This document shows, one piece after another, positions 235-43,319 of a stretch of DNA of 64,000 bases; the first letter of the stretch is position 1, and the number at the start of each line of letters is the position of its first letter. Location: the NCBI GenBank assembly GCA_021828195.1, contig JAKASQ010000001.1, positions 658,335-722,334 on the forward strand. Direction: 5' to 3'. The translations under genes were made by a program, and so were the position numbers. The notes beneath the pieces were generated by a model. The model made no database searches. It was given only the letters and a program-made list of their open reading frames with translations, and had not been told where the DNA came from. The DNA is from Thermoplasmata archaeon. Its GTDB lineage: Archaea > Thermoplasmatota > Thermoplasmata > Lutacidiplasmatales > UBA184.

Positions 235-361
235 GCGGGGATAGCCAAGCCCGGGCAACGGCGCAGGACTTAAACGGAAGGTACGCGCGGATCCTGCTCG
301 CGAACCGTCCGAAGAGATCCTGCCGCGAAGGCGTTCGCCGGTTCAAATCCGGCTCCCCGCA
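235..361 (+). tRNA. tRNA-Leu (UAA) with a canonical anticodon-loop intron
   Basis: The 7-bp acceptor stem GCGGGGA (235-241) pairs with TCCCCGC (354-360), followed by discriminator A361; CCA is not encoded. The anticodon stem CAGGA (264-268) pairs with TCCTG (318-322). The loop begins CTTAA, giving anticodon UAA, and is interrupted by about 42 nt. A long variable arm and a T-arm with GTTCAAATC follow, as expected for a class II leucine tRNA. The gene sits just after the PRC-barrel stop codon and directly ahead of the METTL5-like gene, with no clear promoter of its own. Confidence 0.93.
275..316 (+). other. Intron of tRNA-Leu (position 37/38)
   Basis: Removing 42 nt here restores a 7-base anticodon loop (CTTAAA + A). 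A bulge-helix-bulge can be drawn: the anticodon stem CAGGA/TCCTG, a central helix CTT/AAG (269-271 with 312-314) and an intron helix starting GGA/TCC (276-278 with 308-310). The central helix would contain one A.G mismatch. A one-base register shift (274-315) would instead give G37. Confidence 0.75.
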
Positions 362-6594: not shown

Positions 6595-8046
6595 TCATCC
6601 CTTCACGACCCCGAGCGGGATCAGTCGCGCGACGCGCCGGGTGAGCCCCGCGCCCTCCGCGACTCGGACGACGTTCTCCACGTCCTTGTACGCCCCGGGA
6701 GCCTCCTCGGTCACCCCCTCGTGGGTCGCCGCTCGGACCTGGATACCTTTGGCGCGCAGCGCGCGCGTCACCTCTTCGTAGCGGAAGGTCCGGTTCGCGG
6801 CGTGCCGGCTGAGACGCCGGCCCGCACCGTGGCAGGACGAGCCGAACGAACGATCCATCGACGTCGAAAGGCCGGCGAGGACGTAGCTCGCGGTGCCCAT
6901 GTCTCCCGGGATGAGCACGGGCTGACCGAACGCGCGATAGGCGCTCGGTACTTCCTCGCGCCCGGCGGGGAAGGCACGGGTCGCTCCCTTCCGGTGGACG
7001 AGCACGCGCTTCGGGCCGTCGTCCAGGCGGTGGGTTTCGGTCTTGGCGATATTGTGCGCGATATCGTAGACGACCGCGAGGTCCATATCCTCGGCGGGAC
7101 GGCCGAACGTTTCGGAGAAGGCGCGGCGCACGCCGTGGGTGATCGCCTGGCGGTTCGCCCACGCGAAGTTCGCCCCCGCGGCCATGGCACGCAGGTAGCT
7201 CTGGCCGTCGTCCGAAGGGATCGGGGCGCACGAGAGCTGCCGGTCGACGAGCTGGGTGCCCTCGCGGACGAGGCGGGCGTCCATGCGTTGGATGTACTCC
7301 GTCGCGATCTGGTGTCCGAGCCCGCGAGAGCCCGTATGCAGCATGACCGTGACCTGCCCCGGCTCCAAGCCGAGCGCTAGCGCGCACTCCGGGTAGAACA
7401 CCTCATCGACGCGCTGGACCTCGAGGAAGTGGTTCCCGGATCCGAGAGTGCCGAGCTGCTTGGAGCCGCGCTTGCGGGCGTTGTCGCTGACCTCGATGGG
7501 ATCGGCGTCCGTCATGCAGCCCTCCTCCTCCTGGACCTCGAGATCCTCGGTCCGGCCGAGTCCGTGCTCGACCGCCCAGCGGGCCCCGCCCGCCAGCACC
7601 TCGTCGACCTCGCTCGGGTTGAGCGGCCGCCCGCCCTTCGAGCCAACCCCGGACGGGACCGCCCGGTACAGGCGGTCCATGAGATCGCCGAGGCGGGGGC
7701 GGATCTCCTCGGTGGTGAGCGAGGTGCGGAGCAGCCGAACGCCGCAATTGATGTCGTAGCCGATCCCTCCCGGAGAGACGACCCCCTCCTCGAGGTCGAA
7801 GGCCGCAACCCCACCCACCGGGAAGCCGTAGCCGAAGTGGATGTCCGGCATCGCGAGCGCGTTGCGCTGGATGCCGGGAAGCGTTGCGACGTTCGCCAGT
7901 TGCATCAGGGACGGATCCCCTTCGACCCCCGAGAGCAACGCCTCGTTCGAGAAGAGCACCCCGGGGACGCGCATCCCCGGAACCTCGTCCACCGGGATCT
8001 CGTAGGTGAACTCGTCGCGGGCGATCAGCCGAGGAACCTTCGCCAC
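6595..8046 (-). CDS. rtcB: RNA-splicing ligase RtcB
   Basis: A 483-residue GTP- and Mn-dependent ligase that joins tRNA exons after intron removal by the splicing endonuclease. Signature segments are all present: 'GGIGYDINCGVRLLR' with the metal-binding Asp and Cys, 'GSGNHFLE', 'HTGSRGLGHQ' and the guanylylated histidine motif 'SSCHGAGR'. The GTG at 8046 is preferred over the longer frame because a TATA-like box lies 27 bp upstream and the predicted N-terminus then matches family length. The window also carries two intron-containing tRNA genes that would need this enzyme; any direct link is inference. Confidence 0.95.
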   Translation of the reverse strand: MAKVPRLIARDEFTYEIPVDEVPGMRVPGVLFSNEALLSGVEGDPSLMQLANVATLPGIQRNALAMPDIHFGYGFPVGGVAAFDLEEGVVSPGGIGYDINCGVRLLRTSLTTEEIRPRLGDLMDRLYRAVPSGVGSKGGRPLNPSEVDEVLAGGARWAVEHGLGRTEDLEVQEEEGCMTDADPIEVSDNARKRGSKQLGTLGSGNHFLEVQRVDEVFYPECALALGLEPGQVTVMLHTGSRGLGHQIATEYIQRMDARLVREGTQLVDRQLSCAPIPSDDGQSYLRAMAAGANFAWANRQAITHGVRRAFSETFGRPAEDMDLAVVYDIAHNIAKTETHRLDDGPKRVLVHRKGATRAFPAGREEVPSAYRAFGQPVLIPGDMGTASYVLAGLSTSMDRSFGSSCHGAGRRLSRHAANRTFRYEEVTRALRAKGIQVRAATHEGVTEEAPGAYKDVENVVRVAEGAGLTRRVARLIPLGVVKG

Positions 8047-39099: not shown

Positions 39100-42000
39100 C
39101 TACCGCATCTCCTCGAGCTCGAGCCGCATGATCACGCCGAGTCCGATCAGCTCCTCTAGGAGGAGCTTGAACGAGTAGCTCATCTCGATCGGATAGATGG
39201 ACGAGGTGTTCCCGCAGCTCGGGCAACGGAGCGAGCCCGCCCGCGCGTCGGGGATCGCGATGTGGCCGCACTCCGGGTTGCCGCAGACGTACTGGATCGT
39301 ACCGTCCGACTGATCGAGCAGGCGATCCTTGATCACCATCGCGACGCCGTGGCCGATGAGGCAGTCGCGTTCCATCTCTCCGAACCGGAGACCTCCCTGG
39401 CGGGAGCGCCCCTCGGTCGGCTGCCGGGTGAGGATCTGAACGGGCCCGCGCGAGCGCATATGCATCTTGCCCGCGACCATGTGGTGGAGCTTCTGGTAGT
39501 AGATGACGCCCACGAAAATCTCCGCCTCGAAGCGGCGACCGGTCATGCCGTCGTAGAGGGTCTCCCGTCCGGACGGATGCAGGCCGAGCGCCTGGAGGCC
39601 CTCGCGCAATGCCTCCTCTCGCTCCCCGGAGAACGCCGTGCCGTCGATCGTGCGGCCCTCGAGCGCGCCGACCTTGCCTCCCAACATCTCGAGGACATGG
39701 GCGACCGTCATGCGCGACGGGATGGCATGGGGATTGATCAGCAGGTCCGGCGACATCCCATTCATCGTGAAGGGCATGTTCTCCTGGGGGACGATGAGGC
39801 CGATGACCCCCTTCTGCCCGTGCCGGCTCGCGAACTTGTCACCGAGCTCGGGAATGCGCTGGTTGCGGACCTTGACCTTGACGAGCTTGGAGATATTCTC
39901 TCCCTCCGTCAGGATCACATTGTCGACCCAGCCGGACTCCCCAAAGCGGACGGTGACGCTCGTCTCGCGGCGTTTCTGAGGCGTCAAGAGGTCGGTCTTT
40001 TCCTCCAGGAAGCGCGGCGGGCTCGTCTTGCCGACGAGCACGTCGCCTTCGCTGACCTCGAGCTCGGGGAAGATGAGGCCGTCCTCGGCGAGATTGCGAT
40101 AGGCGGTGTCGACGCGTGCCCCCGTCACATCGGGACGGGGGATCTCGAAGCGATCCTCCTGACCGCCGGGATACTTGCGTTCCTCGCCCCGGTACGTCCG
40201 GAAGAACGAGGAGCGTCCGAGCCCGCGCTCGATCGATCCGCGCGAGAAGACGAGCGCGTCCTGCATGTTGTACCCCTCGAAGGACAGGACCGCGACCACG
40301 AAATTCTGGCCGGCGGGACGCTCGGTGAAGTGCACGTAGCGCATCGTCTGCGTGCGAAGCAGCGGCGACTGCGGATAGTGCAACAGATGACCCCGCGTGT
40401 CGGGGCGGCGACGGTAGTTCACCGACTCGACGCCGAGCGCCTGCTTCGCCATCGCCGAGCCCATCGTGTTCCGCGGGGCGGAATTGTGCTCCGGGTACGG
40501 GATGAGGCCGGTCGTGACACCGAGCATCAGGTTCGGGTCGATCTCCAAGTGTGTGTGGCGCGGATCGAGCAGCGTGGGGGTCTCGAAGGGGGCGTGGCAG
40601 TGCCCGCACTCAACGGTGGCACCCTGGCCCTTGCCGCCCGCGGCGAGCCACTTGACATCGGAGCGGCTGAGCGCGTGCTCGCACTTGGGGCACCGGTCGG
40701 GAGGGACCGACGCCTCCACCGCGATGAGTGCGTCCTCCTCCTCTTCCGCATCCATCCACTCGACGGCGCCGGCCCGGATGAGGTCGGAGTACGTCCGGGT
40801 CCCGGTCGTGAGCTCCTCGAGATCGGAACGGCTGACCTTGGGAGTCGCGTTCTGAACGAAGACGAGTGGGCGGCGCAACCGACCGGAGTCGGAGTGCACG
40901 ATGACCTCGTTCATCGCTTCGTCGTAGCGGACGTTAATCTCGTAGGTCTTCTCCCCGAGCGTGGGCGAGAGCGTCCCTGCGCGGCGGCGCTCGCGAATCT
41001 CGCGCACGAGCTCGATCGGGTTCGAATGCAGCCCGATGAGGTTCCCGTTGACGTAGACACGCGCGGCCCTCTTCCCCTTCGGGGCGGCCGATTCGCGGAA
41101 GACCTCGGGGCCGATCTCGCGGGTGTTGAGATCGCGCAGGATTAGCGCCACCTCTTCCTCGTCGGCGCCTTCGGAGACATCGACGCACAGCGCGTAGTTC
41201 TTAACGAGGCCGCAGTTCTGACCTTCGGGGGTCTCGTTCGGGCACAGGCGCCCCCATTGAGTGGGGTGCAGATCGCGCGCCTCGAAGTGAGGTTGGCTGC
41301 GCGTGAGCGGGCTCGTGACCCGGCGCAGGTGGCTGATCGTGGACATGTGACTGGTCCGGTCGAGGACCTGGCTGACTCCCGATCGCCCTCCGACCCAGTT
41401 TCCCGTCGCGAGAGCGTGGACCAGACGCTGGGTGAGCAGGTCCGGGCGGATGGCGCTCGCGATCCGCAGGTCCTTCTTGCGCGCGAACGAGCGCTCGAGC
41501 TGGTACTTCAGGTCCTTGAGTAGGAGGCTAAAGGCGACCCGGAAGAGATCCTCCATCAGGTCGCCGGCGAGCTTGAGGCGCTTGTTCGCGTAGTGATCCT
41601 TGTCGTCCTCTCCTCGCTCCTTGAGGTGAAGCTCGAGGACCGTCCGCGCCATGCGCGCGAGATACAGCGCCTTCTTCAGCCGGTCTTCGCGCGTGTCCCC
41701 GAGGTGCGGGAGGAGCGAACGGTCGAGGATCCCGTCCACTTTGCGCTGCCGGTACTCCTTCGCCTGCCCCGTCGCGAACTTCTTCTCGAGGAAGAGGAGC
41801 GCCTGTTCCGGGTTGAGGATCCCCTCGGGCGGATAGTTCTTCTTCGAAAGGCACTCCTCGAGATTGACGTTGAGGAGGTGCTTCATCGTCTGGACGAACG
41901 GCTCGTCCAGCGGCAACAGCTCTCCGAGGACCGCCTGGAAGATCTCCTCGTCGTTGTTCATCCCGAGGGCCTTCATCAGGATCGTGAGCGGGATCTGCCC

Positions 42001-42774
42001 GCTCGCTGTCGGGACGCTGACCTGGAGGAGACCGTCCTTCTTCTTCTCGACGACCGTGAGCGACCGGTACCCGCCGCGCTGGCTGAACACCTTGGCGCTC
42101 TCGATGGGCGTCCCGTACCGCTCGCTGTACTCCGCGAAGATTCGGTTCGGTGCGAGGTCTTCGAGGCTGATGATGACGCGTTCCGTTCCACCGATGATGA
42201 AGTATCCACCGGGATCGAGGGGATCCTCCCCGTACTCGACGAGCTTTGCGCGGTACTCCTCATCGGAGATGGGGACACCGGAGTCGCGCTCGATGTTGAC
42301 GCGGTTGAGGTTGCACGGTCGGCTCTTGACCATGATAGGCATGTCGCCGATGTGCACGGTCTCCGGCGCGCGCTCCACGCCGTTCTCGACGACGGTGACG
42401 TTGAGATAGATCGGGGCTTGGTAGGTGAGGTTGCGCAGGCGCGCTTCCATCGGCGTCAAGGTGGGCTTCGAGCCGACGGGCTCCTTGACGAACGGCTGGC
42501 CCACGAAAATGGTGGATTCCGCCGACGGGTTCACGAGGTTCGTGCGGGTGTCCCGGCGTCGCCCGACACGGACGTGGATGGAGCTCTTCGTCTTCTGGAC
42601 GTCGAGGCGAACGACGCCGCGCTCGCCGGCGTCCTCGCTGACGCGGGCATCGTCGACGATCCGCTGCATCCGCGAGTTCGGGTTGTCGTTCGTCGGTAGG
42701 AAGTCGTTGAAACTCGCGAGATGGTGGTTGACGATCGACCGCTCCCGGAAGAAGGCGTCTACGATTTCTCGCAT
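39100..42774 (-). CDS. rpoB: DNA-directed RNA polymerase subunit B (unsplit)
   Basis: A 1224-residue second-largest subunit. Both halves, which are separate B'' and B' genes in methanogens and halophiles, are fused here; Thermoplasmata and Crenarchaeota share the unsplit form. Clear blocks include '[13 protein letters not shown]', '[23 protein letters not shown]', '[19 protein letters not shown]' in pieces, and the C-terminal zinc site 'CGNPECGH...CPSCG'. A second CPKC/CGHC knuckle lies near residues 690-725. It lies 7 bp after rpoH and 11 bp before rpoA1 in the same operon. Confidence 0.97.
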
Positions 42775-42780
42775 GGAATT

Positions 42781-43122
42781 TCAATCCCCCCCGCTCGACG
42801 GGACGATGAGCCGGTAGGCGATCGCTTCCCCCGCCGTCTCCGATCGCCGGCGGATCCGGACGAGGCGCCCGGTGAGATTCTCGCGCGCGTCGCGCGCCTT
42901 CACGTAGGCGAGATCGGTCTTCAGACCGGGATCGTTACCGAGGATCTTGGGGAGCCGCTCGGGCGGAGTCCCGAGGTCCTCCAACACCTTCCGGCTCTCC
43001 GTCTCGCTGAGCACCTCATGGCGGGGCACCATGTGGTGGGCGACGAACGGTCGAGCCTGGGCGGGCGCGCTCGGCGACTTCGAGCCTTTCTTGGACCGCG
43101 TTCGGGGGGTTGCAGGAGTCAT
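42781..43122 (-). CDS. rpoH: DNA-directed RNA polymerase subunit H (Rpb5-like)
   Basis: A 113-residue protein. The conserved archaeal RpoH core is 'HHMVPRHEVLSETE' (29-42), 'PERLPKILGNDP' and 'RIRRRSETAGEAIAYRLIVP' at the C-terminus. The first 25 residues form a basic Ser/Pro-rich extension. It is the first protein gene of the polymerase operon, and its start lies 22 bp after the 3' end of the tRNA-Lys gene, so the tRNA and polymerase genes probably share a transcript. Confidence 0.94.
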   Translation of the reverse strand: MTPATPRTRSKKGSKSPSAPAQARPFVAHHMVPRHEVLSETESRKVLEDLGTPPERLPKILGNDPGLKTDLAYVKARDARENLTGRLVRIRRRSETAGEAIAYRLIVPSSGGD

Positions 43123-43157
43123 GGAGATCCTCGAGGAGGGTCACGGGCCCGGGGGGA

Positions 43158-43195
43158 TGCTCGGAGGATTTCCGCGCGTCGCGCGGGAACCCGCA
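43158..43195 (-). other. T-loop intron of tRNA-Lys (position 59/60)
   Basis: A complete bulge-helix-bulge can be drawn: outer helix GGGGG/CCCCC, central 4-bp helix TTCG/CGAG, 3-nt bulges AAT and CAT, then a long intron hairpin. Cutting after the second base of each bulge leaves the regular T-loop TTCGAAT. The flanking AT repeat makes the exact register ambiguous by up to two bases, but the mature sequence is the same. Confidence 0.8.
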
Positions 43196-43235
43196 TTCGA
43201 ACCCCCGACCAACTGGTTAAAAGCCAGTTGCTCTT

Positions 43236-43264
43236 TGCCGGGCCACCGAGGGCATCGGTCGACC
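43236..43264 (-). other. D-loop intron of tRNA-Lys (about position 20/21)
   Basis: The motif is less regular than that in the T-loop. A central helix CCGG/CCGG (43270-43267 with 43241-43238) is flanked by the bulges TTG and CAA, and the intron forms a hairpin with ACCGA/TCGGT. Cutting after the second base of each bulge gives the D-loop AGTCCGGTTAA. The outer helix is the short D-stem rather than an adjacent one. Confidence 0.65.
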
Positions 43265-43319
43265 AACCGGACTGAGCTACGGGCCCGATCCCGCTCCGAG
43301 GAACGGAGACCCGAGCCGT

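Follow-up and report, generated by a model that had tools for sequence, protein, structure and literature searches.

Background

Introns at positions 20/21 and 59/60, as well as tRNA genes with several introns, are already known from the Crenarchaeota. In Euryarchaeota with a splicing endonuclease of the alpha4 or alpha2 type, fewer than 10% of the tRNA genes are reported to be interrupted, by one intron each and at the canonical position (PMC4090602). A 2014 review states that such enzymes cleave canonical bulge-helix-bulge (BHB) motifs only, and that Korarchaeum alone among alpha2 archaea has non-canonical introns (PMC4033280). The present analysis concerns a 64,000-nt window, the whole stretch of DNA analysed, on contig JAKASQ010000001.1 of a soil-dwelling Thermoplasmata archaeon of the order Lutacidiplasmatales. 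This window contains a tRNA-Lys(UUU) gene with inserts in both the D-loop and the T-loop, and the same Lys introns are kept across the whole order and much of the class. Very probably the gene is functional, apparently present in one copy, and interrupted by two non-canonical introns of the BHB type. At the level of sequence these introns are real, and their splicing is inferred from it.

Structure of the tRNA-Lys(UUU) gene

The four stems are fully paired (acceptor GGGCCCG/CGGGCCC, D GCTC/GAGC, anticodon ACTGG/CCAGT, T GGGGG/CCCCC) and the anticodon loop CTTTTAA is not interrupted (Table 1). Once both inserts are taken out by the cut rule, a complete 75-nt cloverleaf with the anticodon UUU is obtained, which together with the discriminator base gives a tRNA of 76 nt and identifies the gene as that of the lysine UUU isoacceptor. 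The first-pass annotation, made from the sequence alone, had described a tRNA-Lys(UUU) with inserts in the D- and T-loops, four perfect stems, an unbroken anticodon arm, a mature length of 76 nt and introns of 29 and 38 nt. Rereading of the minus strand confirmed these observations, the last three figures as sequence lengths. RNAfold, applied to the separate D- and T-arms, returned bulge-helix-bulge shapes, that of the T-arm slightly shifted at one bulge.

Table 1. Position of the tRNA gene, its parts and the related genes (window coordinates unless stated otherwise)
Feature	Position	Strand	Basis and remarks
tRNA-Lys(UUU) gene including both introns and the discriminator base	43144..43286	-	stems, loops, relatives
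Anticodon TTT (UUU), loop CTTTTAA 43223-43217	43219..43221	-	sequence
D-loop intron of 29 nt, placed by the cut rule between 20a and 20b	43236..43264	-	71 genomes compared
T-loop intron, position 59/60, 38 nt here, length variable among relatives	43158..43195	-	relatives compared
RtcB tRNA ligase, expected to join the exons	6598..7902	-	PF01139, E 9.3e-175; converted from G000:C6:664932-666236
Splicing endonuclease, 354 aa	G000:C6:20364-21428 (outside the window)		two PF02778 and two PF01974 domains
rpoH (RNA polymerase subunit H)	42781..43122	-	sequence motif, not a database search; starts 21 nt after the tRNA

The T-loop insert lies in a motif with a central helix of four pairs (TTCG/CGAG), two 3-nt bulges (AAT and CAT) and helices on both flanks, the outer one being GGGGG/CCCCC, as is typical of archaeal BHB introns; the same helices and bulges had been recognized at the first reading. 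The D-loop insert has a central helix CCGG/CCGG, which includes G18-G19, and the bulges TTG and CAA. The earlier annotation had this helix and the 3-nt bulges right and missed the absence of a continuous outer helix, AGT standing opposite A between the D-stem and the central helix. The motif is not a strict BHB (hBHBh'), position 16 being pairable with the opposite A in only 20 of 71 genomes. With its central helix of four pairs, its inner helix and its opposed splice-site bulges it is a relaxed one, similar to the bulge-helix-loop (BHL) or HBh' type.

Comparison within the order

Of 106 Lutacidiplasmatales genomes, 94 contain the tRNA-Lys(UUU) pattern, nearly always once, and 71 of the pattern-positive genomes were read for the comparison of the inserts. 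All 71 have the D-loop insert, with an identical length (a 40-nt loop) in 68. The T-loop insert is present in 70, in T-loops of 33 to 49 nt, while genome G004 has the uninterrupted T-loop TTCGAAT. The sequences of the inserts diverge widely across the order, yet the helices hold. Over 46 distinct T-loop sequences the outer helix is paired in 100%, the central in 97.8% and the inner in 92.8%; over 49 distinct D-loop sequences the central helix is paired in 100%, with two-sided changes (UA/CG, AU/CG/GC), and the inner in 95.9%. Helix windows slid along the alignments as a control for this D- and T-loop covariation test gave 23-81% pairing. The observed pattern, shared by the 71 genomes with covarying helices, is thus well above chance.

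The normal 7-base T-loop that the first-pass annotation expected from the standard cut is restored, at the level of sequence, in 70/70 interrupted genomes. The exon side of the T-loop bulges is nearly invariant (5' AA in 68/70, 3' T in 70/70) and the bases on the intron side are variable, as the cut rule predicts. The outer helix is formed by the T-stem itself, and the central helix takes one of its strands from the universally conserved T54-T55-C56-R57; only the matching 3' strand then has to come with an intron. A ready-made TTCR half-motif of this kind would explain the same sort of intron at 59/60 in 14 tRNA genes of this archaeon. Among the tRNAs with a T-loop intron, those with G57 have C opposite in the central helix; in those with A57 (L036, L037, L040, L042 and L031) the opposite base is G in 5/5 and never U.

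Introns in the other tRNA genes of the genome

A list of about 43 tRNA genes, which is a lower bound, was compiled from Rfam hits of all strengths inspected by eye and from a search with the covariance model R1 described below. Introns are present in 20 of them (about 47%), in 16 at non-canonical sites. T-loop introns occur in 14 genes (Lys-UUU, Asn-GUU, Asp-GUC, Glu-CUC, Gln-CUG, Gly-UCC, His-GUG, Ala-GGC, Arg-UCU, Arg-UCG, Ser-GCU, Ser-GGA, Ser-CGA and Leu-UAG), D-loop introns in Lys-UUU, Leu-UAG, initiator Met and Arg-GCG, and canonical introns in Met, Tyr, Trp and Leu-UAA. The window's other tRNA gene is Leu-UAA (238-357, plus strand), whose intron lies in the anticodon loop and which ARAGORN misses. 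In this genome the covariance model R1, built on the intron-bearing T-arm, gave 11 matches at E < 0.003 and two weaker true ones; Asn-GUU had been left out of the model and was not found by it. Searches of the assembly did not reveal tRNA genes for Pro-UGG, Pro-GGG or Glu-UUC, which may lie outside it or be more heavily interrupted.

The pairwise comparison of the 14 T-loop introns with shuffled sequences (91 pairs) gave a mean z of 0.11 and a best value of 3.3, and hence no clear signal of transposition. Recent transposition among the tRNA genes of this genome is not supported, the similarity being on average no better than that of shuffles; an old transfer of introns between tRNA genes would still be compatible with this result. 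Elsewhere in the genome, a degenerate tRNA-like sequence of 27 bits (L032 1501-1573, G000:C1:85313-85385) lies 4 kb from an intact tRNA-Gly(GCC) gene and has an identical 10-nt upstream flank; it is perhaps a decayed duplicate of that gene.

Only one site, that of the gene described here, matched the pattern CTTTTAAYC in the 1.62-Mb assembly. A second tRNA-Lys(UUU) copy, which according to the first-pass annotation would have spoken against its reading if this one were silent, was looked for, and no other gene with this anticodon loop was found in the assembly. Lys-CUU is a separate gene without introns. Neither ARAGORN nor Rfam, at the gathering or at a relaxed threshold, called the tRNA-Lys(UUU) gene.

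Distribution in the class Thermoplasmata

Outside the order both Lys introns were found in nine families (f7, f9, f11, f18, f22, f29, f30, f32 and f33). Three f9 genomes have the T-loop intron only and one f14 genome the D-loop intron only, and in families f8, f15 and f27 the tRNA-Lys(UUU) gene has neither. Naturally uninterrupted versions are thus available in the T-loops of G004 and G116, in some f9 D-loops and in the f8, f15 and f27 genes. The class-wide alignment showed the same trend of helix pairing as the order. The R1 model matched 182 of 300 class genomes and gave no match in 118, including the listed genomes of f8, f15 and f19; there were 4-12 matches per genome in the home family and mostly 1-4 elsewhere (the Lys gene where the position was comparable). 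These counts are lower bounds, since the strict filters recovered 8/14 introns in the archaeon's own genome. It may be suggested that the pair of introns is old in the class, the pair being present in many families and absent or lost in others, and that T-loop introns have multiplied in the home family.

In most genomes checked, within and beyond the order, tRNA-Lys is the upstream neighbour of rpoH. This conserved order indicates that the compared tRNA genes are orthologs, whose introns were gained or lost at one locus. In the window, tRNA-Lys, rpoH and rpoB are consecutive on the minus strand (39100-43286), 21 nt separating the first two, and the class-wide order suggests that the polymerase operon and the tRNA may be transcribed together.

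Splicing endonuclease

The first-pass annotation held that introns at such positions need an endonuclease of broad specificity, and that an unusual form of the enzyme was implied. Identification of the endonuclease subunits, which it proposed as a check, yielded a single chain of 354 aa with the alpha'2 layout: two fused subunits in one chain, a catalytic triad (Y285, H300, K331) that is invariant in 44 aligned sequences and confined to the C half, and a predicted dimer. Its protein matches are Thermoplasmata metagenome-assembled genomes (MAGs), including UBA184, UBA61 and the AcS/SubAcS soil MAGs (the Lutacidiplasmatales of PMC9287336). Agreement of gene coordinates identified UBA184 with G030 and UBA61 with G031 and placed both in the genus to which the window belongs. 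A search of the assembly for a separate subunit found none, both PF01974 domains lying within one gene. The AlphaFold2 model (pLDDT 93.5) fitted best to the Methanopyrus kandleri enzyme (5x89, Foldseek TM score 0.86), followed by those of Archaeoglobus fulgidus (2gjw, 0.76), Thermoplasma acidophilum (0.62) and ARMAN-2 (0.55); phmmer against the M. kandleri endonuclease gave E 4.6e-30. The enzyme differs from the three-unit epsilon2 chain (alphaN-alpha-betaC, about 390 aa) in its length, in its two N-type and two catalytic-type domains and in its poor fit to 4fz2. At the site of the crenarchaea-specific loop (CSL), YGSQLGDRLELSLIE, it is as long as the wild-type A. fulgidus enzyme, the chimera 3p1y being 10 residues longer. 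An insertion at this site occurs in 0/44 homologs, so that the enzyme does not belong to the broad CSL type, in which this loop, with a lysine in the catalytic half, is regarded as the source of broad specificity. Residues 79-129 (L001:718-1782), in the non-catalytic half, form a highly conserved stretch (YRDLRQRGY ... VLPRGG ... KTPSR) that is shorter in A. fulgidus and could be a stand-in for the absent loop.

Full BHB motifs are known substrates of alpha'2 enzymes, and an unusual enzyme is therefore not needed for the T-loop intron; only the D-loop motif is relaxed, and the position of the introns does not by itself call for a broad enzyme. From the earlier interpretation the presence of both introns in a Thermoplasmata lineage stands, extended to 71 relatives, whereas the unusual broad endonuclease was not borne out. 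As to relaxed motifs, one review states that they are cut efficiently only by (alpha beta)2 and epsilon2 enzymes, while citing the cleavage of a BHL intron within a full pre-tRNA by A. fulgidus (PMC6379350); another regards homodimers as able to cut them (PMC8707768). Broad activity of the plain enzyme form is put forward here as a proposal. The single-chain homodimer would cut two nucleotides into each bulge and RtcB would join the exons, after which the D- and T-loops could dock.

Alternative explanations

Several points weigh against two spliced introns. Removal of the inserts is deduced from the sequence; the D-loop has no continuous outer helix, and PMC6379350 rates alpha'2 enzymes as narrow; the rule-based cut leaves a D-loop of 11 nt compared with 9 nt in intronless relatives, so that the 3' cut site there could be two off. 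In A57 tRNAs the fourth central pair of the T-loop motif is an A-G mismatch, and there is a C-C mismatch in the case of Asn. With the assembly at 93.6% completeness, a second tRNA or endonuclease gene could be absent from it. Some of these points would fit a T-loop intron combined with a D-loop insert that is not removed and lengthens the D-arm of the mature tRNA: the broken outer helix, the two surplus bases, and also the length of the D-loop, constant in 68/71 unlike that of the T-loop insert. Such retention is nevertheless improbable, for the covarying four-pair central helix and the opposed 3-nt bulges are hallmarks of BHB introns, the initiator Met, Arg-GCG and Leu-UAG genes have D-loop inserts of this form too, and the insert is missing entirely from some f9 genomes.

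Cleavage by a broad-specificity endonuclease of a different form (a heterotetramer, an epsilon2 enzyme or one with an extra subunit), as inferred in the first-pass annotation, deserves slightly more weight and is still unlikely. Introns of this sort are best known together with (alpha beta)2 and epsilon2 enzymes (PMC4090602, PMC6379350, PMC12397907), the best structural match is an (alpha beta)2 enzyme and the assembly is incomplete; against this stand the location of both PF01974 domains in one gene and the single-chain homologs, none with the CSL-site insertion, in the 44 aligned relatives. That the gene is a pseudogene, AAA codons being read by another tRNA, is hardly credible even though the standard finders pass it over: its stems are perfect, it is kept in 71 genomes, the assembly contains this loop nowhere else, and the intronless Lys-CUU tRNA should not, under the wobble rules, read AAA. 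This reading was rejected on conservation.

Comparison with known systems

It appears rather likely that a non-crenarchaeal class carries non-canonical tRNA introns, multiplied in one family, which are processed by a single-chain alpha'2 endonuclease lacking both the CSL and the ARMAN-2-type specific loop (ASL). With about 47% of the tRNA genes found interrupted and a loopless alpha'2 enzyme, this archaeon is in conflict with the published canonical-only statements for euryarchaeal alpha2 enzymes, and the co-evolution rule becomes directly testable with one purified enzyme. If the reading given above is true, the rule that links the type and loop of the endonuclease to the location of tRNA introns fails for Thermoplasmata, and the fixed TTCR of the T-loop is a ready half of a splice motif. 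Genes of this kind escape ARAGORN and the Rfam tRNA model, which may bias those completeness checks of these genomes that rely on tRNAs. A literature search that took in only a minority of the subscription papers yielded no article about tRNA introns in Lutacidiplasmatales or Thermoplasmatota, and introns are unmentioned in PMC9287336. The spread in Thermoplasmatota and the coexistence with a loopless alpha'2 enzyme were likewise not found in the literature searched; an earlier record of them may exist.

The Thermoproteales and other Crenarchaeota likewise have BHB introns at 20/21 and 59/60, several per gene and in many genes (PMC4090602, PMC4033280). Their enzyme is an (alpha beta)2 with the CSL, in contrast to the single-chain alpha'2 type in Thermoplasmatota, where the intron sequences also give no clear indication of transposition. 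Korarchaeum cryptofilum shares the combination of a homodimeric alpha2 enzyme with non-canonical introns (PMC4033280), but the enzyme studied here lacks the CSL-site insertion. ARMAN-2 and other ultrasmall archaea also have non-canonical introns beyond the Crenarchaeota; the epsilon2 enzyme of ARMAN-2 is a three-unit chain with the ASL, unlike the present one with only two catalytic-type domains. The closest enzyme in both fold and sequence is that of M. kandleri, which has no defined CSL and a constrained-broad specificity (PMC12397907, PMC6379350) and consists of two separate subunits, fused in the crystal, whereas in the archaeon described here one natural chain is found.
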